NCBI RefSeq assembly: GCF_003841485.1
Contig: NZ_REFY01000004.1
Coordinates: 310,001 to 374,000, forward strand
Length of the DNA: 64,000 nt
DNA from: Natrarchaeobius halalkaliphilus
GTDB taxonomy: Archaea > Halobacteriota > Halobacteria > Halobacteriales > Natrialbaceae
Direction: 5' to 3'
The first letter of the stretch is position 1. The number at the start of each line of letters is the position of its first letter. Position numbers and translations under genes: made by a program. Shown piece after piece: positions 2-19,105 of the stretch. Below the pieces are notes generated by a model that was given only the letters and a program-made list of their open reading frames with translations, was not told the origin of the DNA and made no database searches.

Positions 2-718
2 GGTGAGGATCACCACACGCACCTGTATACCGGTATCACCGGCGGCAGAGAGAACATGCGCAAACTCTCCGAGGCCGGGCTCGACGAGATTCGATTCCAC
101 CCGCCGTACGAGCAGTGGGGCGACCTCCACGGTACAGAGTGGGAAGACGTTCTCTACGTCGCCCGCGAGGAAGGACTCACACCGGCGTTCGAAATTCCCG
201 GTATTCGTGCCGAGACGGAGTTCCTCGAGTTCCTCGATGAGGGTGCAGCGGAGTTTTGCAACGTAAACGAGTTCGAGATGTCACAGGGGAACTACCGCCG
301 AATGCAAACGCAAGGCTTCGAACTCAAGGAGGGCCACATGAGCGCCGTCGACGGCTCTCGAGAAGAGATCCTCGAGACCATGGGCGATCACGAACGCGTC
401 TACTTCTGTACGTCGGTGTTCAAAGACGCGGCCCAGCACCGGCGGCGCCTCAAGCGAATGGCTCGCAACGTTCGTCGGGAGTTCGACGACGTCACCGACG
501 ACGGAACGCTCGTCTACGGGAAGACGACCACCGATCCCGCCCGTCTCGTTTCCCTGGGCGTCCCCGAGGAATTTTACACCGTCAAGACGAACCACGTCGA
601 GGTCGCCTGGTGGCTCTTAGAGGAGATGATCGAGGAGGGTGACATAGAGGACGGAGAGATCGTCGAGCAGTACCCGAGCTACGACGGACAGGTCGTCGAG
701 CGGACACCCTTAGCGTAG
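2..718 (+). CDS. Radical SAM protein, C-terminal part (gene starts before the window)
   Basis: The frame is open from the first bases and ends at a TAG, leaving 238 residues. The 5' end, which should hold the CxxxCxxC cluster motif, lies outside. The visible part reads like the last strands of a radical SAM barrel (TGITGGRENMRKLSEAGLDE, then a run ending EFCNVNEFEMS), as in the archaeal family related to pyruvate formate-lyase activating enzyme. That assignment is inference from pattern, because the cluster motif cannot be seen. The substrate is unknown. It is convergent with the next gene, 90 bp away. An internal ATG at 56 is unlikely to be the true start because the frame continues upstream in the same protein style. 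Confidence 0.75.
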   Translation, partial: GEDHHTHLYTGITGGRENMRKLSEAGLDEIRFHPPYEQWGDLHGTEWEDVLYVAREEGLTPAFEIPGIRAETEFLEFLDEGAAEFCNVNEFEMSQGNYRRMQTQGFELKEGHMSAVDGSREEILETMGDHERVYFCTSVFKDAAQHRRRLKRMARNVRREFDDVTDDGTLVYGKTTTDPARLVSLGVPEEFYTVKTNHVEVAWWLLEEMIEEGDIEDGEIVEQYPSYDGQVVERTPLA

Positions 719-808
719 CAGAAATACCACGGTTCACGCAGGTCCCACAAAAAGGAGGACGGAAACTCCGGCCGCGCCGTGATCGTTGATGTGAGCGGGG
801 ACTGTCGT

Positions 809-2086
809 TCACTCGACTTCCGTGGGATCAACTTCGGGGAGGGTGATGAGGTTTTCCCGACCGATTCGGAGTTTGTCTATCTCCTCGTCGTCGTCCATCT
901 GTGAGAGTAACTGCGACACCTTGGCGTTCGACCAGCCCGTCTCTTTGACGATGGTAGCCTGTTTCAGCCTTCCGCCGTTCTGCTTGAGTAGACGGTGGAC
1001 GCGTTCTTCATCGCTCAACAGCTCGAGATCAACGTCCTCTTCGAGTTCTTCCTGATACTCGATGCTGGTTCCGGCCGGCGTGTCATCGCCACCAGCCGTC
1101 GGCCGTTCGGATGCGACTTCGTTACCGCCGTTCTCGCCGGCGGGCGTCACCGTCTCCTCGAGCTCGCTCTCGGCAGCGCTCGGCTCCGATCGCGATGACT
1201 GCGGGAGGATTCCGTCGCCGGACGACATTCGTCCGAAGCGATAAAAGAGGTAGCCGACGACGAGGAGAGCGACCACTGCGCCGGCAGCCGGAACGACGGG
1301 CGAGGAACCGCCGGTGTCGGGAACGTGTCCCCGGAGGAAGACGATCTCGAGATCGCCGTCTTCGAACTGGTGTGGTCCGTCCCAGGTGAGTTGCGTCGGC
1401 GTCTCGAGGCCGTAGTTCGGTGGGGACTCGATGACCAGACGCTGGCCGTCGACGAGGTCGATGTTTGTTCCGGCCGACGACTGGAAGGCGTCTCCGAAGT
1501 AGATCCGCCCGTCGTCGATGGTCGCCAGATTCGTCCAGGTGAACGAGTACGAAATAACGCCGATCCGAGCGTCGTCGTCAAGATCGGCGTCCTCGGGTGG
1601 ATCCTCGAAGTGCGGAGCGTTCCAGCCGGCGTTTTCGAGGGTCATCTCGCGATCGGTCGCGCCGGCTGCACTGTCGACGAACGGCTCGAACTGCGCGACG
1701 TCGTAGCCGACCTCTCGGTCGCCGCTCGAAACGGAGTCGGCGTGCTCGACGAGGAGTTCCTCGTCGGCTTCCTCGGAGACGACGAACCGGCTTTCGATCG
1801 TCCAGCGAGCGTCGCCGTCGTCGCTGACGTTGATCCGGATCACCTGAAACGGCTCGGCGGATGGAAGCGGCGTCTCGTTGGACGTGGTCGTGAGAGAGGG
1901 CTCGGGGACCTGTCCCGACTCGAGAGAGGAGAGGGACGGTGATTCGTGTGGAGGGTCTGCGCCGGAGACCGTTCCGGACTCGGGTTCGGCCCCGAGCGCG
2001 GCTACCGGAGCGGCAAGCGCTACCCCCAGCAGGGACGTAACGAGGAGGGCTGCGAGGGCGAGTGTGACCGCGGTGGACAACCGCAT
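809..2086 (-). CDS. Membrane-anchored winged-helix transcriptional regulator
   Basis: 425 residues. A hydrophobic segment at the N-terminus (LSTAVTLALAALLVTSLLG) looks like a signal or anchor. About 230 residues of acidic, probably extracellular, domain follow, then a second membrane helix (PAAGAVVALLVVGYLFYRFG, about residue 270), a low-complexity Ser/Glu linker, and a C-terminal winged helix of about 60 residues (DEERVHRLLKQNGGRLKQA onward). This layout is that of haloarchaeal one-component regulators with an outside sensor and inside DNA-binding domain. The ATG at 2086 is preferred: an upstream GTG (2173) and ATG (2128) are in frame, but the AT-rich TATA-like stretch at about 2134-2142 lies at or within those longer versions. 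The ligand is unknown. Confidence 0.8.
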   Translation of the reverse strand: MRLSTAVTLALAALLVTSLLGVALAAPVAALGAEPESGTVSGADPPHESPSLSSLESGQVPEPSLTTTSNETPLPSAEPFQVIRINVSDDGDARWTIESRFVVSEEADEELLVEHADSVSSGDREVGYDVAQFEPFVDSAAGATDREMTLENAGWNAPHFEDPPEDADLDDDARIGVISYSFTWTNLATIDDGRIYFGDAFQSSAGTNIDLVDGQRLVIESPPNYGLETPTQLTWDGPHQFEDGDLEIVFLRGHVPDTGGSSPVVPAAGAVVALLVVGYLFYRFGRMSSGDGILPQSSRSEPSAAESELEETVTPAGENGGNEVASERPTAGGDDTPAGTSIEYQEELEEDVDLELLSDEERVHRLLKQNGGRLKQATIVKETGWSNAKVSQLLSQMDDDEEIDKLRIGRENLITLPEVDPTEVE

Positions 2087-2306
2087 ACGTTCAACGAGTG
2101 GTTTCTCGGGGGAAAAAACACTTTCCATCCGAAAATAAAACGTTACCGGCGGTCGTAAATCGTCTCGACGCACGAGAGTGCCTCTATTCCAGCGTCAGTC
2201 CGGCCCTAAACGAGTGGTCCGATTCGGCCGATCGAGCGCAATCAGGGGTCGACCGACCGCCGCTCGGTAATCACGGACTACGTCTCTCGTCCGGAGGACG
2301 ACCCCC

Positions 2307-2314
2307 TTTTGTAT
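2307..2314 (+). promoter_or_regulatory. TATA box of the 2337 gene
   Basis: TTTTGTAT lies 23-30 nt before the ATG at 2337, the spacing expected for a nearly leaderless haloarchaeal transcript. Confidence 0.5.
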
Positions 2315-2336
2315 CAGGAGCCCGTACGGTGGGCCG

Positions 2337-3563
2337 ATGAACAGCGCGACGCCTGCCCTCCTCGCGTTGCTTCTCGTCTGCTCGCTCCCTGCGATGGCGA
2401 TCGTCGCAGCCGATTCCGGACTCGATGGATCCGGCGAGCCAGACGGAAGCGTCCAGGACGACGTCCCGCGAACGCCCCTCGAGATCGAGAATACGACGAA
2501 CCGGCTTCAGCTCGGAGAGACGACCCACGGCTACGCCGGGGCGACTCCGAATCTCGGTTCGGTTTTCGCGAGCACCGACGAGGAGCTTCGGGTCGATCAC
2601 GAACAGTACGTCTTCGTCGAGCGCGGGTTCGACACCGCAAGCTCCACCGAACGAGAGGAGATGATCGAAGCGGCACACAGCCGGATCACCGATCGGACTG
2701 CCGAACTCGAAGAACGCGAGGAAACCGTCGTGCGCCAGCACGCAAACGGCGAGAAATCCGACGACGAGCTGGTGCGATCGCTTCTGGAGATCTACCACGA
2801 AGCGTCAGTGCTGTTGGACGGTCTCGACCGGCTCGAAGAGCGGGCGGACGACGTGGTAGGTTACTCGTTATCTTCCAATCAGGTGAGAGAGAACACGCGA
2901 GCGCTCGAGGCCCACCGGACCACGATCAAGTCGGAGCTGGCGGCATCGAGTGCGGATCTCGAGGCTGACGATCGATTCGAGGTTCTGATCCAGACGTCCG
3001 AGGAGGGATATCGGCTCTCGATAATCGAGGGGGAAACCTACATCTCCGAGACGACCCGGTTCGACAATTACGATCCGGAGGCACCGGATCAGTTCGCAGG
3101 GACCGATCGGGACGCCTACGATTACGCGGGTGAACTCTACCCGTGGGCCGCCGAGCACGGCTCCCCGAACTACCTTGCGGCGGGATCCATTCACGATATC
3201 AGCTTTACCGCAAACGAGTTCGATATTCGGATGTACATCGACGGCGGAACGGGTGAGGTCTACCGCGAACTGCAGAGGCTATCGATCGATTCGCTGCCGA
3301 TCAAAGAGCACGAAACGTGGAGCCAGGACGGTCTCGAACTATCGACCAGAACGACACCAGCCAACGGTCCGGTCGAAGTGACCGTTACGGACGCCGAAAC
3401 GGGCGAACCCGAGTCGTCGACGATCGCCGTTGACGGACACGAACTCGGGGAGACCGAGAGCGACGGAACGCTGTGGATCATCCCACCGATCGGAGAATAC
3501 GAGCTAGCTGCCGAGACACAGACCGGCGGTATCAACGTCACGACCGAGACGCCTGGCGGATAG
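2337..3563 (+). CDS. Secreted haloarchaeal protein of unknown function
   Basis: 408 residues. An N-terminal signal peptide is clear (LLALLLVCSLPAMAIVAA, residues 8-25). A helical Glu/Arg-rich middle follows (about 95-220, probable coiled coil), then an alpha/beta section, and a C-terminal beta-rich domain (about 340-405) that resembles an Ig-like or carboxypeptidase-regulatory fold (VTVTDAETGEPESSTIAVDG). No catalytic motif or C-terminal anchor is seen, so it is probably released or held by partners. I know similar proteins only as conserved haloarchaeal hypotheticals. It lies 84 bp before the pilin-like gene on the same strand and may share its surface role; that is inference. Confidence 0.75.
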   Translation: MNSATPALLALLLVCSLPAMAIVAADSGLDGSGEPDGSVQDDVPRTPLEIENTTNRLQLGETTHGYAGATPNLGSVFASTDEELRVDHEQYVFVERGFDTASSTEREEMIEAAHSRITDRTAELEEREETVVRQHANGEKSDDELVRSLLEIYHEASVLLDGLDRLEERADDVVGYSLSSNQVRENTRALEAHRTTIKSELAASSADLEADDRFEVLIQTSEEGYRLSIIEGETYISETTRFDNYDPEAPDQFAGTDRDAYDYAGELYPWAAEHGSPNYLAAGSIHDISFTANEFDIRMYIDGGTGEVYRELQRLSIDSLPIKEHETWSQDGLELSTRTTPANGPVEVTVTDAETGEPESSTIAVDGHELGETESDGTLWIIPPIGEYELAAETQTGGINVTTETPGG

Positions 3564-3647
3564 GCAGACCTGTTTCACGTCACACGAACCGCAGTCGTCT
3601 TCAATCCGTCCAGAGGTTTAAATTCCAAGACGAGGCCAGAGCGAGCC

Positions 3648-4160
3648 GTGATCGACGGAGCCGCCTCCCCGTCACCTCCAGACGCTCGCTCGAGAACGAC
3701 CTCGCGCGCCCTGAGCCCGGTCGTGGGCGTCGTCGCGCTCGTGGCGATCACCGTCTGTCTGGCCGCCATCGTCGCAGTCGGTGCGGCGTCGCTGTCCCTC
3801 GGATCGACGGCACCGACCGCCGCGTTCGACCTCTCGGTTGACGGCGACGAGAACGAAATCGTGATCGAACACGTCGCCGGTGAGTCGCTCGACGTCCGCG
3901 AACTCTCGATCGTCGTCGCGGTCGACGACACTCGGCTATCGGAACAGCCGCCAGTACCGTTCGTCGGCGCGAACGGCTTCGAGGGGACACCGAGCGGTCC
4001 GTTCAACGAGCGGTCCGATCCGACGTGGCACAGCGGAGAACACGCGAGTCTGACCGTCGCACGGAACAACGATCCGTCACCGAATTCGGGCGACTCGGTT
4101 TCGGTGTCGCTCTCCGTCGACGGTCACCGTCTCGCGACGCTCGAGACCGTAGCAGAGTGA
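3648..4160 (+). CDS. Type IV pilin-like protein
   Basis: 170 residues. After a short polar leader comes SRALSPVVGVVALVAITVCL (from residue 19), a class III signal peptide: a prepilin peptidase (PibD) should cut between Ala21 and Leu22, leaving LSP and a hydrophobic helix that packs in the pilus core. The rest is a small acidic beta-rich head with Val/Ser repeats (FDLSVDGDENEIVIEHV). It is exported and assembled into, or anchored with, adhesion pili; its exact pilus is unknown. The start is GTG at 3648; a TTTAAATTCC stretch about 25-30 nt upstream fits a TATA box. Length and layout match haloarchaeal PilA-like proteins. Confidence 0.85.
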   Translation: MIDGAASPSPPDARSRTTSRALSPVVGVVALVAITVCLAAIVAVGAASLSLGSTAPTAAFDLSVDGDENEIVIEHVAGESLDVRELSIVVAVDDTRLSEQPPVPFVGANGFEGTPSGPFNERSDPTWHSGEHASLTVARNNDPSPNSGDSVSVSLSVDGHRLATLETVAE

Positions 4161-4231
4161 GAACTCGAGGCGATGGACGGGGCGTTCGTCCCGGTTCGGG
4201 AGGGATGAACGTGCCGTTCGAAGGGATAAGC

Positions 4232-10221: not shown

Positions 10222-11985
10222 ATGAGTCAGGCAGAAGAGATCGAAACCGTCGACGAAGACGGTGTAATCGAACGCGTGAGTGGTCCAGTCGTGACCGCCA
10301 CGGACCTCGACGCCCGGATGAACGACGTCGTCTACGTCGGTGAGGAAGGGCTGATGGGAGAGGTCATTGAAATCGAAGGGAACCTGACCACGATTCAGGT
10401 ATACGAAGAGACCTCCGGCGTCGGCCCGGGCGAGCCAGTCGAAAACACGGGCGAGCCCCTTTCCGTCGACCTCGGACCGGGTATGCTAAACGCCATCTAC
10501 GACGGCGTCCAACGCCCACTCGACGTTCTCGAAGAGAAGATGGGAACGGCGTTTCTCGACCGCGGGGTCGACGCGCCCGGTATCGACTTCGAGAAGGAGT
10601 GGGAGTTCGAGCCGGTCGTCGACGAAGGCGATGCGGTCGAACCCGGCGACGTCATCGGTGAAGTCCCCGAGACCGCGAGCATCACCCACAAGGTGATGGT
10701 TCCGCCCGACTACGAGGGTGGCGACGTCACGTCCATCGAGACGGGCGAGTTCACCGTCGACGAGTCGGTCGCTGAGCTTTCGTCGGGCGAGGACGTAACG
10801 ATGCACCAGGAGTGGCCGGTGCGTAAAGCCCGTCCCGCGGACGAAAAGAAGACCCCGACGATCCCGCTCGTTTCGGGTCAGCGAATTCTCGACGGCCTCT
10901 TCCCGATCGCCAAGGGTGGAACGGCGGCGATCCCCGGACCCTTTGGCTCCGGAAAGACGGTCACCCAGCACCAACTCGCCAAGTGGGCCGACGCGGACAT
11001 CGTCGTCTACGTCGGCTGTGGTGAGCGCGGGAACGAGATGACCGAGGTCATCGAGGACTTCCCCGAACTCGAGGACCCGAAGACGGGCAAGCCGCTCATG
11101 TCACGGACGTGCCTCATCGCAAACACGTCCAACATGCCGGTCGCAGCCCGCGAGTCCTGTATCTACACGGGAATCACCATCGCGGAGTACTTCCGCGACA
11201 TGGGCTACGACGTCGCGCTGATGGCCGACTCCACCTCGCGGTGGGCAGAAGCCATGCGAGAGATCTCGAGTCGACTCGAGGAGATGCCCGGCGAAGAGGG
11301 GTATCCCGCCTATCTGGCGGCCTCGCTTTCGGAGTTCTACGAGCGCGCCGGCCTGTTCCAGAACGTCAACGGCACGCAGGGATCGGTGTCGGTCATCGGC
11401 GCAGTCTCGCCACCCGGCGGTGACTTCTCCGAGCCGGTCACTCAGAACACCCTTCGGATCGTCAAGACCTTCTGGGCGCTGGACGCAGACCTGGCTGAGC
11501 GGCGTCACTTCCCCTCGATCAACTGGAACGAATCGTACTCGCTGTACCAACAGCAACTCGATCCGTGGTTCAGAGAGAACGTCGAGGAAGACTGGCCCGA
11601 GGTTCGCCAGTGGGCCGTCGACGTCCTAGACGAAGAGGACGAACTCCAAGAGATCGTCCAGCTCGTCGGCAAGGACGCGCTTCCGGCCGACCAGCAGCTA
11701 ACCCTCGAGGTCGCTCGCTATCTCCGCGAAGCGTGGCTCCAGCAGAACGCGTTCCACGACGTCGACACCTACTGCGATCCGAAAAAGACCTACCGGATGC
11801 TGGGTGCGATCAGGACGTTCAACGACGAAGCGTTCGCGGCACTCGACGCCGGCGTTCCGGTCGAAGAGATCGCAGACGTCGATGCCGCCCCACGGCTCAA
11901 CCGGATGGGGACCGCGGACGAGTGGAACGAGTTCATCGACGAGATCGAATCGGACCTCGAAGAACAGATTCGGAGTCTGTACTAA
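10222..11985 (+). CDS. atpA: A-type ATP synthase catalytic subunit A
   Basis: 587 residues. Three A subunits alternate with three B subunits in the head and carry the catalytic ATP sites. Domains in order: N-terminal barrel (1 to about 75, [20 protein letters not shown]), the bulge domain special to A subunits (about 115-200), and the nucleotide domain with the P-loop GPFGSGKT (about residue 234) and Walker [21 protein letters not shown], then the helical C-terminal domain. [18 protein letters not shown] is the conserved arginine-bearing stretch. No intein is present. atpB starts 2 bp after the stop. Confidence 0.97.
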
Positions 11986-11987
11986 CC

Positions 11988-13406
11988 ATGAAAGAGTACC
12001 AGACAATCACGGAAGTCAGCGGTCCGCTGGTGTTTGCCGAAGTCGACGAACCCGTCGGATACGACGAGATGGTCGAGATCGAAACGCCGAGTGGAGACAC
12101 CCTGCGCGGACAGGTGTTGGAATCGAGCGACGGACTCGTCTCGATTCAGGTGTTCGAGGGGACCGGCGGTATCGACCGCAACGCGTCCGTTCGGTTCCTG
12201 GGCGAAACGATGAAGATGCCGGTCACCGAGGACCTGCTCGGACGGGTGCTCGACGGCTCCGGGAACCCGATCGACGGCGGTCCGGAGATCGTTCCCGACG
12301 AACGTATCGACATCGTCGGTGAAGCGATCAACCCCTACTCCCGGGAGTATCCCGAAGAGTTCATCCAGACCGGTGTCTCGACGATCGACGGCATGAACAC
12401 GCTGGTTCGCGGTCAGAAGCTGCCGATCTTCTCGGGTTCCGGATTGCCTCACAACGAACTCGCACTCCAGATCGCCCGGCAGGCGACCGTCCCGGAGGAA
12501 GAAGAAGGCGACGACGAAGACGGCTCGGAGTTCGCAGTCATCTTCGGTGCGATGGGGATCACCCAGGAGGAGGCAAACGAGTTCATGCAGGACTTCGAGC
12601 GCACGGGCGCGCTCGAGCGTTCGGTCGTCTTCATGAACTTAGCGGACGACCCCGCGGTCGAGCGGACGGTCACCCCGCGTCTCGCGCTGACGACGGCGGA
12701 GTACCTCGCCTTCGAGAAGGATTACCACGTTCTCGTCATCCTCACCGACATCACGAACTACTGTGAGGCGTTGCGAGAAATCGGTGCGGCCCGCGAGGAG
12801 GTTCCGGGTCGGCGTGGCTACCCCGGATACATGTACACCGACCTGGCACAGCTCTACGAGCGTGCCGGTCGAATCGAAGGCCGCGAGGGATCGGTAACGC
12901 AGATTCCGATCCTCACGATGCCCGGCGACGACGACACGCACCCGATCCCCGACCTGACGGGATACATCACCGAAGGGCAGATCGTGATGGACCGGGACCT
13001 GAACAGTCAGGGGATCGAGCCGCCGATCAACGTCCTGCCCAGCCTCTCGCGGCTGATGGACGACGGGATCGGCGAGGGCCTCACCCGCGCGGACCACGGC
13101 GACGTCTCCGACCAGATGTACGCCGCCTACGCGGAGGGTGAGGACCTGCGCGACCTCGTGAACATCGTCGGTCGCGAAGCGCTATCCGAGCGTGACAACA
13201 AGTTCCTCGACTTCGCTGACCGCTTCGAGGACGAGTTCGCCCAGCAGGGCTACGATACCAACCGATCGATCGACGACACGCTCGAGATTGGCTGGGATCT
13301 GCTGTCGACGCTTCCGAAAGAGGAACTCAACCGTATCGGCGAGGACCTCATCGAAGAGCACTATCGCGAGGAAGAAGTCGAGCAGGTCGAAACGACAGCG
13401 GACTGA
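11988..13406 (+). CDS. atpB: A-type ATP synthase regulatory subunit B
   Basis: 472 residues. The non-catalytic partner of subunit A in the head. It starts [20 protein letters not shown] at the ATG 2 bp after atpA; the longer open frame upstream is a shadow of atpA. The degenerate P-loop region reads [20 protein letters not shown] (about residue 145), where A subunits have GxxxxGKT, as is normal for B. Later landmarks are [33 protein letters not shown] and [22 protein letters not shown]6 run follows 12 bp after the stop and may end transcription, so atpD, usually the next gene, is probably transcribed on its own. Confidence 0.97.
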
Positions 13407-13424: not shown

Positions 13425-13644
13425 CAGACCGCGACGTGGCGAGCGGAGACAGGATCACCACCCCTATATCCAGTCCTACCAACCAGACGTTTCGGTTTTA
13501 CTAGGTCCAGTTTCTCGTTGATCGCATTTTTACACCTGGTTACCACCTGCCAGCAGTAACTTTTGTACGGACATACTTTGACTCCGTTCACCGATCCCAT
13601 GTTACTTCTAACTATATTAATTGAAATATTTCATACGCATAAAA

Positions 13645-13650
13645 TTTATA
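13645..13650 (+). promoter_or_regulatory. TATA box in an AT-rich leader region
   Basis: TTTATA lies 23-28 nt before the ATG at 13673. It sits within about 70 bp (13600-13672) that are almost only A and T, in strong contrast to the GC-rich atp genes just upstream. The region marks the left side of the AT-rich island. Confidence 0.55.
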
Positions 13651-13970
13651 TTCTTTAATATATTATTTCTAAATGAGAATAGATGATAATAATAGCAGAT
13701 CGCGTCGAAACCTACTCAAGAAATCGGGGGCCATTGGGCTTGGCGCGATTAGTCTTAGCGGATCGGCTGGAGCGCACGACGAATCGGTAAGAAATCTCCA
13801 CTCCGAGGATGATTTCAAAGCTGAAAATTATGTCGAAAGAGAAGAATTCATCTACCGAAGAGTCCAGACCGCGGAGACAGAAATGCTGTTGCGACTTGAT
13901 TTAGGGAAGGGTGAGGCTGTATTCGCTGAGATGAAATATGCAAGAACTGCAGAGGGTCTGACGGATTCAC

Positions 13971-13978
13971 CAATGGAT
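13971..13978 (+). repeat. Left target-site duplication CAATGGAT
   Basis: An 8-bp direct repeat identical to 15695-15702, directly outside the left terminal inverted repeat. Eight-bp duplications are known for ISH1-type elements of the IS5 family. Confidence 0.9.
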
Positions 13979-13995
13979 GGCTCTGTTGAAATCCT
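13979..13995 (+). repeat. Left terminal inverted repeat of the IS
   Basis: GGCTCTGTTGAAATCCT. It matches the reverse complement of 15678-15694 at 16 of 17 positions. Confidence 0.9.
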
Positions 13996-14030
13996 TAGTA
14001 AGTTACAGATCCAGTCGGTAGTTTGAGTAG

Positions 14031-14852
14031 ATGCAGACGCTCCCAAAGTCTCGGTTGCTCCAGTTTGTCGAGGAAGCATTTCAGTTAGCTCAACGTGCCG
14101 TAGCTCGATACTCTTCAAAGTTCTCGAAACAACGCTACACTCTCCATCAGCACATCGTTCTCCTGTGTCTCAAAGTTCGGAAAGACACAACGTATCGAAC
14201 ACTTCTCGACGAACTCATCGAGATGCCCCGTATTCGGAACGCGATCAACCTCACCGAACTTCCTGCTCCATCCACGCTGTGCAAAGCGTTCGATAGACTC
14301 GATATGGCCGTCTGGCGAGTGCTTCTCAATCTCTCTGTTTCACTGCTTCCGACCAATGGAGTTGTGGGGATCGACGCTTCAGGCTTCGACCGCAGTCACG
14401 CCTCAAAACACTACACAAAACGAGCCGAACTCACGATTCAGCAGCTCAAAGTGACGCTACTGGTCGATACGAAGCTAAACGCGGTCCTCGATCTACACGT
14501 GACAACGACACGAAAACACGATAGCCAGATCGCCCCATCGTTGATCAAGCGCAATCCCGAGACCATTGACATCCTGCTCGGTGACAAAGGGTACGACGAT
14601 CAGAAGATCAGACGACTTGCCCGTCAACATGAAGTACGTCCACTGATCAAGCATCGTGAGTTCACACCACTTCACAAGGCATGGAACGCACGCTTGGACG
14701 CTGACCTCTACGGCCAACGAAGTCAGTCTGAGACCGTCAATTCAACTCTCAAGCGGAAGTACGGTGCGTTCGTCCGCTCACGACGCTGGTGGAAACAGTT
14801 CCGTGAACTCACTATCGCCTGTCTCGTTCATAATCTCGACCGGTCACTCTGA
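14031..14852 (+). CDS. IS5-family transposase
   Basis: 273 residues, full length for the ISH1-type group. The DDE catalytic residues can be placed: Asp115 in VVGIDASGFDRSH, Asp185 in ILLGDKGYDD, and Glu234 in SQSETVNSTLKRKYG, the last being the Y/N-R/K-E-K region of IS5 relatives. The N-terminus (LLQFVEEAFQLAQRAVARYS onward) is a helical DNA-binding part. The ATG lies 52 bp inside the left inverted repeat, the normal place. No frameshift or internal stop is seen, so it could be active. It cuts and joins the element ends in the cytoplasm. Confidence 0.93.
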   Translation: MQTLPKSRLLQFVEEAFQLAQRAVARYSSKFSKQRYTLHQHIVLLCLKVRKDTTYRTLLDELIEMPRIRNAINLTELPAPSTLCKAFDRLDMAVWRVLLNLSVSLLPTNGVVGIDASGFDRSHASKHYTKRAELTIQQLKVTLLVDTKLNAVLDLHVTTTRKHDSQIAPSLIKRNPETIDILLGDKGYDDQKIRRLARQHEVRPLIKHREFTPLHKAWNARLDADLYGQRSQSETVNSTLKRKYGAFVRSRRWWKQFRELTIACLVHNLDRSL

Positions 14853-15090
14853 GCGGTCAATACAGGAGATCTACACAACACGGGTATCGAATTTTGACAA
14901 AATAACCCACTCATCCATAGCCTTCTATATTGACATCTACTGAATCGGAGACGCTTTTCTCATCAGTAATCCTGAATATGTATGAATGACCGAAAGGTAT
15001 TATTGAGTGCTACTAACGGGAAGCAAGTGGCGCAAACTGTGGAGGGGTCTAGGATCGCTCAACAAGGGTGATCTGTCCAAGAGAAAATAA
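14853..15090. other. Non-coding space inside the IS between the two genes
   Basis: 238 bp between the transposase stop and the convergent passenger gene stop. It is AT-richer than the host genome. No second copy of the terminal inverted repeat is visible, so there is no sign that the passenger lies outside a smaller element. Confidence 0.5.
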
Positions 15091-15564
15091 CTACTCAGCT
15101 ATAGTGAGATCGACCGAATCTGGCACGCCTTCCTTATCGGTGATTCGAATGAGATAGGAATGTGTTTTGAGGTCATCATGGTCGATAAGAAATGGCTTAT
15201 CTACCGAAATAGCAACCCGCAGGCCAGACTCAATGCGTTCAATCGAATCCAGTACAAGATCTTCTTCTGATCGCGTTCCATATTGAGCAACAAGAATATA
15301 CGACTCCTCAAAATTGGTCTCTTCCGCAAAATCAGACCCGTCCGGGTGGTCGTCTCTGAATTCAGTGTCTGCCGTTTCTCCATCTGCTATTATCGTGTAC
15401 GACTGTTCCCTATAACCTAATACAGGAAGTCCGAAAACGTTTCCTTCGGTGTACAGCGTATCCACATCCATATCATTGGGAATTGACGGTGTTCGTGACC
15501 TGTACAATGCATACCCTGCACCAAAAGCAAGACCGCCGACAGCAAGGAATTTCCGTCGCTTCAT
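15091..15564 (-). CDS. Tat-signal passenger protein carried by the IS, function unknown
   Basis: 157 residues. It begins MKRRKFLAVGGLAFGAGYAL: twin arginines followed by a hydrophobic stretch, a Tat-type signal or N-terminal anchor without an obvious lipobox. The rest is acidic and beta-rich (LPVLGYREQSYTIIADGETA, ESYILVAQYGTRSEEDLVLD), suggesting a small secreted or membrane-tethered domain. I recognise no family. ATG 15564 is chosen over the in-frame TTG two codons upstream. It is wholly inside the transposable element, convergent with the transposase, and its base composition matches the island, not the host. It could be a passenger that helps the host or modulates the element. Confidence 0.75.
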   Translation of the reverse strand: MKRRKFLAVGGLAFGAGYALYRSRTPSIPNDMDVDTLYTEGNVFGLPVLGYREQSYTIIADGETADTEFRDDHPDGSDFAEETNFEESYILVAQYGTRSEEDLVLDSIERIESGLRVAISVDKPFLIDHDDLKTHSYLIRITDKEGVPDSVDLTIAE

Positions 15565-15584
15565 AGTCAAATATTTGAGATGAG

Positions 15585-15604
15585 TCCCTAAATGTCTTTA
15601 GGGA
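15585..15604. promoter_or_regulatory. Perfect hairpin just upstream of the passenger gene
   Basis: TCCCTAAA, loop TGTC, TTTAGGGA: an 8-bp perfect inverted repeat, 21 nt before the passenger start codon. It could be an operator or a structure in the leader. It overlaps the place where the passenger's TATA region is expected. Confidence 0.4.
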
Positions 15605-15677
15605 ACCCAAATGCCGATTTGACCAATCCGCAGACCTCATCGACCGGCTGTTTCAGTTGAGAATATGTCTAAAAAAT

Positions 15678-15694
15678 AGGATTTCAACAAAGCC
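15678..15694 (-). repeat. Right terminal inverted repeat of the IS
   Basis: AGGATTTCAACAAAGCC on the plus strand, the inverted partner of 13979-13995 with one mismatch. Confidence 0.9.
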
Positions 15695-15702
15695 CAATGG
15701 AT
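15695..15702 (+). repeat. Right target-site duplication CAATGGAT
   Basis: Identical to 13971-13978. The ATG inside this copy makes the 3' gene fragment look like an independent gene starting at 15697. Confidence 0.9.
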
Positions 15703-16305
15703 GACAATTTGAAGGAACAGACTCGTTCTATGACTGGTGTCGGGGATCCGAATGTTGAATCTGTAGATACAAAACTGGAGGCCGTGGATCCGGTAGAGAT
15801 CGTCGATGCGACGGAGGGTGTGAGTATTCAGTCCAGTGGTGTGATTTTCCAACAGGTGGATGTGGCCGAGAAATATCTCGGAAGTTGCGGGACCATCGGT
15901 TACGATGACCACATGTATTATCACGTCGCGATGGAATTAGGCGATTACAAATTCGACGACCTCGGAGATGCTATCGCCTATGGTGTCGTTTGTGACGCGC
16001 TTTTTATCCTAGTAGGATCGAAAAGCAAAACCATTAAGCAGCTCTTAAAGAAGATTTCTGACCACCCCCTAATAAGGACGATCCCTGACAGCATCTGCGC
16101 ATTTATATCCGGAACGGTCCTAGATGGGATCTTTTCCGGTAACGATGGGACGGTCGCATTTTGGGATCGAGAAAGTGGTGGCACTGTCAGTACATCCCAG
16201 CTCGTTTTTGGAGGCTCGGGCGAATACGACCCTGATCCGGAAGACGTAATCGATAAGGGGCCGGTGGAAGAATTCACGGGAGTCCATACCGAAGCCTTGC
16301 TATAA
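15697..16305 (+). pseudogene. 3' fragment of the IS-split Tat-secreted protein gene
   Basis: The frame codes 202 residues. The first two (Met-Asp) come from the duplicated target, and from 15703 on it is the original gene, in frame with the fragment that ends at 13978. The sequence has a Thr/Val-rich stretch, a segment FQQVDVAEKYLGSCGTIGY, two hydrophobic helices (LGDAIAYGVVCDALFILVGS; IPDSICAFISGTVLDGIF) and an acidic tail. Three Cys are present. No known family is recognised. Secretion by Tat plus hydrophobic helices and a following small membrane-protein gene is reminiscent of a peptide or toxin precursor with partner, but this is only a guess. Without the signal peptide this fragment should stay inside the cell. 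Confidence 0.75.
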
Positions 16306-16393
16306 TAGCTACAACGCAAGTGTCTCTCAAAAATATATTGAGTATAATAGTTGTGTGAAGACGACAACATTACATAAATTACTTAAAACTAGT

Positions 16394-16666
16394 ATGGAAT
16401 TTAATGTTATAATTGCATTTCTTATTGGATTTATCTGGGGGACCATAGTATTCATATATGGTAAGGTCTCAAACGCAGATCCGATTCCCCGTTACGATGG
16501 AACGTTCCGTTCGGCAATTCGAATCGGGATCGATATCGCATTCGTAGGCGGTGGTACAGGAACCGTGGTGTACCTCACAGAGAGCTACCTTTCAGCGTTT
16601 CAGTACGGCCTTGCCGGAATAGTGTTTGCCTGCATCGCAGTCGCTGTTTCCGTCAATTTTCGGTGA
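16394..16666 (+). CDS. Small membrane protein, function unknown
   Basis: 90 residues with three hydrophobic stretches: VIIAFLIGFIWGTIVFIYG, AFVGGGTGTVVYLTESYL and QYGLAGIVFACIAVAVSVNF. Polar residues between them (ADPIPRYDGTFRSAIRIG) form a loop. ATG 16394 is preferred to an in-frame GTG 13 codons earlier, whose extra residues are polar and unlikely. It lies 88 bp after the interrupted secreted-protein gene, in the same AT-rich island, and may have been its partner (for example an immunity or export helper). No homologue is recognised. Confidence 0.6.
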   Translation: MEFNVIIAFLIGFIWGTIVFIYGKVSNADPIPRYDGTFRSAIRIGIDIAFVGGGTGTVVYLTESYLSAFQYGLAGIVFACIAVAVSVNFR

Positions 16667-17050
16667 CGGTTCGATTCAACTCCCGAGAACAGTTTCTCGG
16701 ATAACTCGTCTGACTCGTCGGTCTACAGGGGATGATTTGAGTACTCTGCCGGAGTCGAAAAACCAGGAGTACGTAGTGATCGAGCGCCGAGCCGGACTCG
16801 GCTACGACACCGACAATAGCGCTATTCGGGGGCGGTCGAACTGGTAATCGAGAACCTCCAAAACAAGGGAATGCCCGCTGGGAAACAAGAGCACCGTGGC
16901 GTCTCAGTCTAGATAGTGAAACGGTAACGATGTCTCGTATGGAAGATTGTGCGATTCCAAGTGTCGACGCAAGTAGTTGTGGGATCGCATACGGATGTGT
17001 TGTTGGAAACTGTTCGGTAATATAATGTCCTTCTCAGCGTGAATTATCGT
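16667..17050. other. Intergenic region at the right border of the island
   Basis: 384 bp with no convincing gene. An open frame of 73 codons (16626-16847) overlaps the preceding gene and has no recognisable pattern. Base composition moves back to GC-rich here. A stretch near 16988 (CATACGGATGTGTTGTTG) loosely resembles one edge of the palindromic repeats described elsewhere, too weakly to call. Confidence 0.4.
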
Positions 17051-17413
17051 ATGATCCCCAGACCGACGAAGGGCGGATCGATCGTGGTTCTTCTACTGGC
17101 CGGTACCGTACTCGGTGCCGGCGTACTGGCGACGCGGTATCCGGAACTGCGATCGGCGATGACGATCGTCGTTGGGGCCGCCATCACCTTCGCGCTCCTC
17201 GCACCGTACGTCGTTCCCGGCGTCTACGATCGCCCGACGACGTCCATCATCGGGGTTCTCGTAGCCAGCGTCGGCGGATATGGAATCCTCCTCGATGATA
17301 CGGCAAGTGTGCTGATGTGGCTGCTCCTCGTCGGCGGAATCGCGATGGTCGCGGAGGACCAGTATCGACGGCGACGCGGCTCGGGATCGCCGGAGGGCCA
17401 CGAGGCAAAGTGA
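17051..17413 (+). CDS. Small four-helix membrane protein, function unknown
   Basis: 120 residues with four probable membrane helices: SIVVLLLAGTVLGAGVLA, TIVVGAAITFALLAPYVV, IIGVLVASVGGYGILLDD and VLMWLLLVGGIAMVAEDQ, ending in a basic tail (YRRRRGSGS). ATG 17051 is used; an in-frame GTG four codons upstream adds little. GC-rich like the host genome, so it lies outside the AT-rich island. No catalytic motif is visible. Confidence 0.65.
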   Translation: MIPRPTKGGSIVVLLLAGTVLGAGVLATRYPELRSAMTIVVGAAITFALLAPYVVPGVYDRPTTSIIGVLVASVGGYGILLDDTASVLMWLLLVGGIAMVAEDQYRRRRGSGSPEGHEAK

Positions 17414-17535
17414 GGATCGAGTCACGACGCGAGTCGCTGCGTACCTGATGCGGTGGGACAGATTCGATGTGCTCGAGTGACTTCAACGAAGCAGACTGAC
17501 AGAGTTCTTATACCAGTAGAGTAACGACAACTGAT

Positions 17536-18288
17536 ATGGACCTCGTTTCGCTGGCGATCGGCGGTATTCTCGCTGCCCTCGGTGTGGCTGGGATATGGAC
17601 AGGCACCTCGTCGCTTCGGCAGTGGCGACGGCTGGGTGCCGACGACCCGGTTCCGGTTCGAGAGGCTATTTCGCGGTCGGGTTCGGTCGAAGTCGAGGGA
17701 GCGGTCCGCGAACACGAAACCACGCTCGAGTCACCGGTGATGGACGAGTCGTGTGTCGCCTACGAGTACACGATCGAACAGCGTCGAAATCGCGGCGGGA
17801 AACGGTCGGGGAGCAGGTGGCGAACCATCGAAGACGGAACGGATCGACGGCCGTTCGTCCTCGAGGACGAGTCGGGACGGGCCTACGTCGATCCCGACGG
17901 AGCGTCGCTTTCTCTCGAGCGCGAACGAACACGGAACCCGAACGGCGATTCACCACTGCCCGGGTTCTTGCGCTCGTTGAACGTGGATTTCTCGATCAAT
18001 ATCGGCGGCCCCTTCGGCGCTGGGATCGGAAATCGACGTTACACGGAGCGGCGTCTCGACCTCGACGGACACTGTTACGTCGTCGGTCAGGCCGAGCGTT
18101 CGCCGGCAGGGATCGACGCGGACGTTGCGATCGTCGGTGGCGAGTCTCCGACGTTCCTGATTTCGGACGCGACGGAGGGGGAAACGCGACGGCGACTACT
18201 CCTGCGCGGATCGGGGTTCGGACTGGCCGGTGTCGGTTGCGTTGCTCTCGGACTCTGGATACTCGTCAGTACCGGCGTGAGCGTGTAG
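17536..18288 (+). CDS. Membrane protein with a GIDE-like domain
   Basis: 250 residues. Membrane helices are at the two ends (LAIGGILAALGVAGIWTG, residues 5-22; GFGLAGVGCVALGLWILVST, residues 227-246). Between them a beta-rich cytoplasmic or external domain runs from GSVEVEGAVREHETTLESPV to YTERRLDLDGHCYVVGQAER, the pattern of archaeal and bacterial proteins distantly related to the GIDE part of E3 ligases. There is no RING finger. The function is unknown; family assignment is from memory of the motif GxVExxGxVxxxxxxxxSP and is moderate. It lies just upstream of atpD on the same strand, 100 bp apart. Confidence 0.65.
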   Translation: MDLVSLAIGGILAALGVAGIWTGTSSLRQWRRLGADDPVPVREAISRSGSVEVEGAVREHETTLESPVMDESCVAYEYTIEQRRNRGGKRSGSRWRTIEDGTDRRPFVLEDESGRAYVDPDGASLSLERERTRNPNGDSPLPGFLRSLNVDFSINIGGPFGAGIGNRRYTERRLDLDGHCYVVGQAERSPAGIDADVAIVGGESPTFLISDATEGETRRRLLLRGSGFGLAGVGCVALGLWILVSTGVSV

Positions 18289-18355
18289 CCGCCGAGGTAC
18301 CCACGGCTGCGGATCGGCACGGATCTCGCCGCGTCACGGACTCGAACTGTAAACA

Positions 18356-18388: not shown

Positions 18389-19105
18389 ATGGCCAACGAC
18401 GTCAAACCAACCCGCAAGAATCTCATGGAGATCGAAGACCGGATCGAGCTCTCCGAGCGCGGGCACGGGACCCTAGAGAAAAAGCGTGACGGGTTGATCA
18501 TGGAGTTCATGGACATTCTGGACAAGGCCCAGGACGTCCGCGGCGAGCTTTCGGACGACTACGAATCGGCACAGAAGAAAATCAACATGGCTCGAGCCAT
18601 GGAGGGCGACGTCGCGGTCCGGGGAGCCGCCGCAGCCCTGCAGGAACACCCCGAAATTACGACCGAGTCGAAGAACATCATGGGCGTCGTCGTTCCGCAG
18701 ATCGAGTCCTCTCGAGTCTCGAAGAGTCTGGACGAACGCGGCTACGGGATCATGGGCACGTCGGCCCGCATCGACGAGGCCGCAGAGGCCTACGAAGACC
18801 TCCTTGAAAGCATCATCCTCGCCGCGGAAGTCGAGACCGCGATGAAGAAGATGCTTCGAGAGATCGAGACGACCAAGCGTCGAGTCAACGCCCTCGAGTT
18901 CAAACTCCTGCCGGAGCTCTACGAGAACCAGGAGTACATCGAGCAGAAACTCGAAGAGCAAGAGCGCGAGGAAACGTTCCGGCTGAAGAAGATCAAAGAG
19001 AAGAAAGAGCAGGAAGAAAAAGACGAGCGAGCGGCCGAAGCGGAACGCGAGGCCGACGAAGCGGAGATGGAACAGGCGACTGCGGGCGGCGTCCCCGGAA
19101 ACTAG
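18389..19105 (+). CDS. atpD: A-type ATP synthase subunit D
   Basis: 238 residues. Subunit D is the long coiled-coil rotor shaft (gamma-like) that turns inside the A3B3 head. The N-terminal helix ([20 protein letters not shown] then [16 protein letters not shown]) and the C-terminal helix ([20 protein letters not shown] onward) flank a small beta region ([20 protein letters not shown]). The last 60 residues are a very charged Glu/Lys tail, longer than in most relatives. In haloarchaea this gene normally follows atpB closely; here it is 4982 bp away, beyond an AT-rich island and two small genes, so its dose must be kept by its own promoter. Confidence 0.95.

Follow-up and report, generated by a model that had tools for sequence, protein, structure and literature searches.

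The insertion sequence at positions 13979–15694 of the window (the whole stretch of 64 000 nucleotides of Natrarchaeobius halalkaliphilus DNA that was analysed) belongs to a clade of closely related elements which, as judged by comparison of their sequences, is widespread, almost every copy having a different passenger in the same slot. The clade is probably best described as a haloarchaeal IS5-family lineage of transporter insertion sequences with a fixed passenger slot, in which cargo is acquired through use of a distal right end. An earlier note on this DNA had proposed a small transporter element with an unrelated passenger, and this is supported as a property of the whole clade (69 elements). 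Its suggestion that the element moves secreted-protein genes was too narrow, since metabolic enzymes, transporters, a kinase and regulators are also found among the cargo.

Gene exchange among haloarchaea is notably heavy. If insertion sequences with a core of about 1 kb routinely shuttle single genes, part of this exchange gains a concrete vehicle, which would also carry extra copies of core enzymes such as dihydroxy-acid dehydratase (IlvD). The clade may represent a frequent but little-noticed route of gene transfer among haloarchaea; its cargo is easy to overlook because RefSeq labels only the transposase in the copies read. Its intermediates also make up a natural series in which to study the path from a simple insertion sequence to a transposon.

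The window element and the gene that it interrupts

Direct reading and a repeat search gave a total length of 1716 bp for the window element. Its inverted arms (13979–13995, GGCTCTGTTGAAATCCT, and 15678–15694) are 17 nt each and identical at 16 of 17 positions, and the 8-bp target duplication CAATGGAT flanks the element at 13971–13978 and 15695–15702. The intact transposase ORF (14031–14852, plus strand; 273 aa) scored 222 bits against the NCBIfam IS5_2 equivalog (cut-off 140) and also matched Pfam DDE_Tnp_1; its dN/dS against relatives is 0.04–0.09. The right arm (14853–15694, 842 bp) contains a minus-strand ORF at 15091–15564 encoding a 157-residue Tat-signal protein. In all of these points (ends with one mismatch, flanking 8-bp duplications, intact DDE transposase and an arm of about 840 bp with its minus-strand gene) the earlier note was confirmed.

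The transposase match, the terminal inverted repeats and the short target duplication place the element in the IS5 family. Members of this family usually measure about 850–1200 bp and contain the transposase alone, which is a typical range and no strict criterion (PMC7371123); the window element lies outside this range, and the 69 elements delimited here span 1071–5124 bp. With one transposase and single left and right ends, the window copy does not have the two flanking insertion sequences of a composite transposon. Two other long IS5-type transposases of the same genome were tried as a size control, and no ends were found for them. A 168-bp left-end remnant of the clade (L002, G000:C1:179147–179314; 88% identity), with the other end missing, is present in the same genome.

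Because its own 8-bp duplication flanks the whole unit, the 1716 bp moved as one piece. The insertion lies in a plus-strand gene for a Tat-signal protein, of which the 5′ part occupies 13673–13978 and the 3′ part 15703–16305. Joining the flanks minus one copy of the duplication restores a single ORF, and an uninterrupted homologue occurs at G021:C1:711220–712131 (61% identity over residues 4–302); these two findings identify the window unit as a genuine gene-interrupting insertion. The region 13600–18300, which holds the element and the interrupted gene, is low in GC (41–48%, compared with 61% for the window). It sits between genes resembling A-type ATP synthase subunits A/B (10222–13406) and D (18389–19105), so that an operon-like order appears to be split by an insertion of several kilobases.

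The passenger protein has a Tat-type start (MKRRKFL...); judged by this N-terminus, it is likely to be exported and anchored in the membrane. It matched no family in Pfam or NCBIfam, and its confidently predicted fold (pLDDT 82) had no match in the PDB at E ≤ 0.001. The twin arginine and several other residues are invariant among 22 aligned homologues, and dN/dS values of 0.24–0.35 indicate purifying selection; on this conservation the passenger represents a real protein family, unnamed and haloarchaeal. The hairpin described earlier in its leader (TCCCTAAA-TGTC-TTTAGGGA, 15585–15604, minus strand) is real, with z = −3.4 in the window. As a conserved signal it was rejected, since three relatives of the gene gave z values of +0.4 to +0.9, and it accordingly carries little weight.

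The complete passenger gene lies in a cargo segment at 15044–15630 (minus strand), and passenger loci at 71–76% DNA identity to this segment have no transposase beside them. The sequence at 14861–14975 (minus strand) is what remains of a second passenger of this family, namely its final codons and 3′ flanking DNA (89–92% identity to the passenger 3′ ends at the G046 and G047 loci) and forms an internal repeat of the passenger 3′ end. From this repeat we infer that the present passenger took the place of part of an earlier one from the same family. The related locus L053 has left-end-like sequence with the tail and an apparent decayed right module, without a transposase, so the passenger gene has probably ridden on the element clade before. 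Among 14 passenger loci scanned with HMMs, a single one had a clear right module and one other a weak match to it. The homologues were considered as a native chromosomal source and rejected as such: some of the closest (L053, L069/L280 and perhaps L070) belong themselves to decayed elements of this kind, and for this reason no clean chromosomal donor was identified. No other copy of the whole element with its passenger, that is, of the same repeats enclosing this gene, was found in 125 genomes of the host's family, where the earlier note had recommended looking. Elsewhere in the same genome a truncated passenger relative with its upstream region (L003, G000:C2, positions 1458–1880) adjoins a TnpB (IS1341-type) gene.

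Purifying selection on the passenger, and its association more than once with decayed elements of the clade (L053, L280), would also be expected if the gene served the element itself in an accessory role, such as regulation of transposition. This reading is very improbable, as the gene is found in one intact member, nearly all sisters do without it and carry unrelated genes instead, and its product has a Tat-type N-terminus and belongs to no DNA-binding family.

Sister elements and the passenger slot

Element positions 1 to ∼860–900 were matched at ∼70–91% identity in most of those genomes of the host's family (125 searched) that gave a match, and the passenger arm was found separately and rarely. 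This common left part resembled a short element ending near 14870, so sister elements were delimited by their ends and duplications. The left end was fixed by alignment, and a right end was accepted only if the flanks matched over 8 bp with no more than one mismatch. The resulting 69 elements comprise 42 from the host's family, 26 from named haloarchaeal genomes (Halorubrum, Haloferax, Halogranum, Haloquadratum, Haladaptatus and others) and the window copy; as sampling was by transposase similarity and detectable duplications, old copies and copies at contig ends are missing from this set. The duplications are exact in 65 of the 69 elements. Left and right flanks of the same element match in 69/69 accepted elements, compared with 8/4692 mismatched pairings (about 0.2%), which excludes chance as their origin. 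No phages carrying the transposase were found.

Two constant modules bound a variable arm. In information profiles of the 69 elements, conservation measured from the transposase stop falls to about zero at ∼+14, and conservation measured from the right end starts at about −69. The constant left module thus consists of the end, the transposase and ∼14 nt past the stop, and the constant right module of the last ∼70 nt. The left terminal inverted repeat has the same position and sequence class in all 69 elements, the left leader is constant at about 52 nt, and the extra DNA lies to the right of the transposase. In the window copy the left module ends at 14866 with the tail GCGGTCAATACAGG (14853–14866, plus strand), and the right module, which is common to differently loaded sisters, begins at about 15626 and extends over ∼69 nt (15626–15694, plus strand) to the end of the right inverted repeat. 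Many haloarchaeal plasmids contain a match to the right ∼70 nt when it is searched alone. The control set, seven ISH3-family copies from divergent hosts, all with duplications, spanned only 1378–1515 bp.

The earlier note had held that a common short element with its right end near 14870 would speak against a passenger-bearing unit. One half of this was found: the left module does end at ∼14866, and a cargo-free form of ∼950 bp exists once, in Halorubellus salinus (L108/L190), where it has no target duplication. The other half was not, as none of the elements delimited was a short one with a target duplication, and the 1716-bp unit has its own duplication. The cargo-free form would favour a one-off event in which the passenger region entered a normal ∼1-kb element later, by insertion or local rearrangement, and lies outside the mobile unit. 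We regard such an event as scarcely credible: the duplication encloses the full window unit, matched duplications around the other cargo-bearing copies contradict it, an arm of at least 114 bp occupies the same place in 69/69 elements, and the passenger has no ends of its own. Because the same 8-bp duplication lies outside both modules, the DNA between them moved with the element.

A second class of right module (CGCGC...TATTCAGCACGG...TATCA) occurs in L029, L172, L166, L128, L205 and L197, which span four different left clades, as if it had been borrowed from another insertion-sequence lineage; in L029 part of this module is also present, inverted, at the left edge of the cargo. A repeat (GGCCTTTTTAGCGTA...TTTTTGCGCCGAG...GAGGCGGAAAAAGGT) is shared by L134, at element positions ∼890–1045, and L069, upstream of its passenger. 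It sits just past the tail in these otherwise unrelated elements and resembles a separate small mobile or structured repeat.

Cargo and its acquisition

The arms between the constant modules have a median length of 687 bp (range 114–4167, n = 69) and fall into 50 cargo clusters at the DNA level, 40 of them singletons. Even between close relatives the cargo differs: of 23 pairs in which the left modules agree at 95% or more of positions, only four have at least 150 nt of arm in common. The same cargo also occurs at different sites, that of L116 and L117 being 98.7% identical in different host genera and between different duplications.

When 64 cargo ORFs were scanned for family matches, full-length matches were obtained for IlvD (824 bits) and for a type 2 isopentenyl-diphosphate isomerase. 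Further enzymes were a maltose O-acetyltransferase, an acyl-CoA dehydrogenase, TehB-type methyltransferases, alpha/beta hydrolases and a redoxin; membrane and signalling proteins comprised MATE and MFS transporters, a CNNM-type membrane protein and a PAS histidine kinase, and DUF2270 was also matched. Many of the small cargos encode Tat-signal or membrane proteins that match no family, and defence systems were represented only by mads_2-type matches in two members. Two IS6 matches, one IS66 match and one IS5-type match in the arms indicate that some arms took later insertions. The IlvD cargo is an extra copy, the host also having a core gene at 74% identity; relatives at 92–93% protein identity occur in G077, free of element ends, and in G047, inside a different element copy. 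Where the longest ORF of a distinct cargo reaches 90 aa or more, it is oriented towards the transposase in 34 of 49 cases (p = 0.009); for elements shorter than 2 kb the figure is 22 of 28 (p = 0.004). These counts are upper bounds, because such ORFs can be spurious in GC-rich arms. Eight of the cargo ORFs encode HTH_10 (bacterio-opsin-activator type) regulators, and regulators may be favoured as passengers. These HTH_10/BAT regulators recur in about five unrelated arms, several beside a DUF7344-type protein (L116, L119, L105, L120, L152, L127 and L096).

In the mechanism that we consider likely, the transposase would bring together the left end and a compatible right module lying in cis, whatever the distance. 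Where the nearest right end is damaged or skipped, a farther right module, supplied by another copy or by a miniature derivative, would be used, and the DNA between would become cargo; the inner right end would afterwards decay or be deleted. Recombination between copies within the transposase gene would, in addition, reassort left halves with other right halves. In L134, L175, L105/L213 and L096 a damaged inner right module is followed by more cargo and then by a working outer right end. By the same arrangement of damaged inner and working outer ends L187 equals L188 plus more and L126 equals L123 plus more, and in L280 an inner/outer arrangement surrounds a relative of the window passenger. 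These inner modules with outer ends point to stepwise outward growth through a distal right end. The transposase genes of L020 and L031 are mosaic, A-like on the left and B-like in the last 150–250 nt, and that of the window is clearly A-like over the first ∼400 nt only; recombination inside the gene thus swaps whole right halves.

Some observations do not sit easily with use of a distal end. An inner right module is still visible in only about 8 of 69 elements, and the left junction lies at nearly the same place in most elements; decay alone would not predict so fixed a left edge. The class of the right module follows that of the transposase tail across different cargos (45 elements, p ≤ 1e-4), the matching module being found with 9/13 A tails, 14/20 B tails and 9/12 C tails. 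This linkage fits either specificity for particular ends or retention of the original right end, and free choice of distal ends would blur it unless specificity were strict.

Retention is the central feature of internal capture, in which the original right end stays in place and foreign sequence is inserted as a copy between the tail and the right module, perhaps by template switching while the excision gap is repaired; such a route has been suggested for the way in which plant Pack-MULEs acquire genes. Three observations speak for it: the association of tail class with right-module class irrespective of cargo, the very similar left boundary in unrelated cargos, and the pair L029/L172, which share the left module, the first ∼85 nt of the arm and the right module and differ in the middle. 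It would not, however, lead one to expect decayed inner right modules with further cargo and an outer right end beyond them, and several copies use right modules of a different class; we therefore think internal capture rather unlikely. The inner relics favour distal ends, and the tail linkage together with L029/L172 leaves room for internal capture; weighing these sequence features, we would give the distal-end mechanism roughly twice the weight.

Relation to known mobile elements

The nearest precedent, in another insertion-sequence family, is IS231/MIC231 of Bacillus. These IS4-family elements of the B. cereus group are modular, measure 1450–5400 bp and include members with extra DNA carrying passenger genes for resistance, virulence or metabolism, a modularity that as of 2008 had not yet been observed in other families (PMC2266710). 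The present clade shares with them a variable passenger region between constant parts and a wide size range. It differs in having an IS5_2 transposase and 8-bp duplications, whereas IS231/MIC231 have a YREK transposase of the IS4 family and duplications of 10–12 bp; in placing the extra DNA between transposase and right end rather than between left end and transposase; and in its spread across haloarchaea, IS231/MIC231 being almost confined to the B. cereus group. Transporter insertion sequences (tIS) are a named kind, defined with the IS1595 family (Siguier et al., 2009, as cited in PMC3129680). As that citation presents them, tIS combine insertion-sequence ends and a transposase with passenger genes unrelated to transposition, and belong to another transposase family. 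Matched duplications and the same cargo at different sites indicate that here, too, an unrelated gene is enclosed and moves as a unit. ISDsp3, a tIS example in the IS6 family, is a single member (PMC7986276), whereas nearly every copy of the present clade has a different cargo.

Pack-MULEs of plants are one transposon lineage in which many different host genes lie between constant ends. The 50 cargo clusters give the present clade the same character; Pack-MULEs, however, are Mutator-type, eukaryotic and mostly carry gene fragments, whereas several cargo genes here are full length. Capture of the Pack-MULE type, by template switching or gap repair, is favoured by the fixed left edge and opposed by the inner right-module relics. 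It is conceivable, although we hold it doubtful, that the clade is a prokaryotic counterpart of the gene-capturing plant transposons: an insertion-sequence lineage spread across haloarchaea, with a dedicated slot immediately past the transposase stop, that routinely acquires, transports and exchanges whole host genes, core metabolic enzymes and regulators included, the cargo-bearing form being the norm.

No paper describing a family-wide variable slot was found in a search that did not cover ISfinder or most subscription journals. A single reported case in haloarchaea is Hlac_3088 of Halorubrum lacusprofundi, an S-layer-like protein that is a transposon passenger beside the transposase (PMC10544981); by its description it resembles the present elements in having the passenger next to the transposase. 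ISHla2 and ISHxa2 (ISfinder names in RefSeq annotation, where only the transposase is labelled as the insertion sequence) belong to the same transposase clade as the window element. No papers naming either were found; ISfinder and subscription papers lay outside the search, and passengers may already be on record there. The ISHxa2-type copy on pHALXA01 measures 2490 bp, is flanked by the duplication CACCGTCT and carries two passenger genes.
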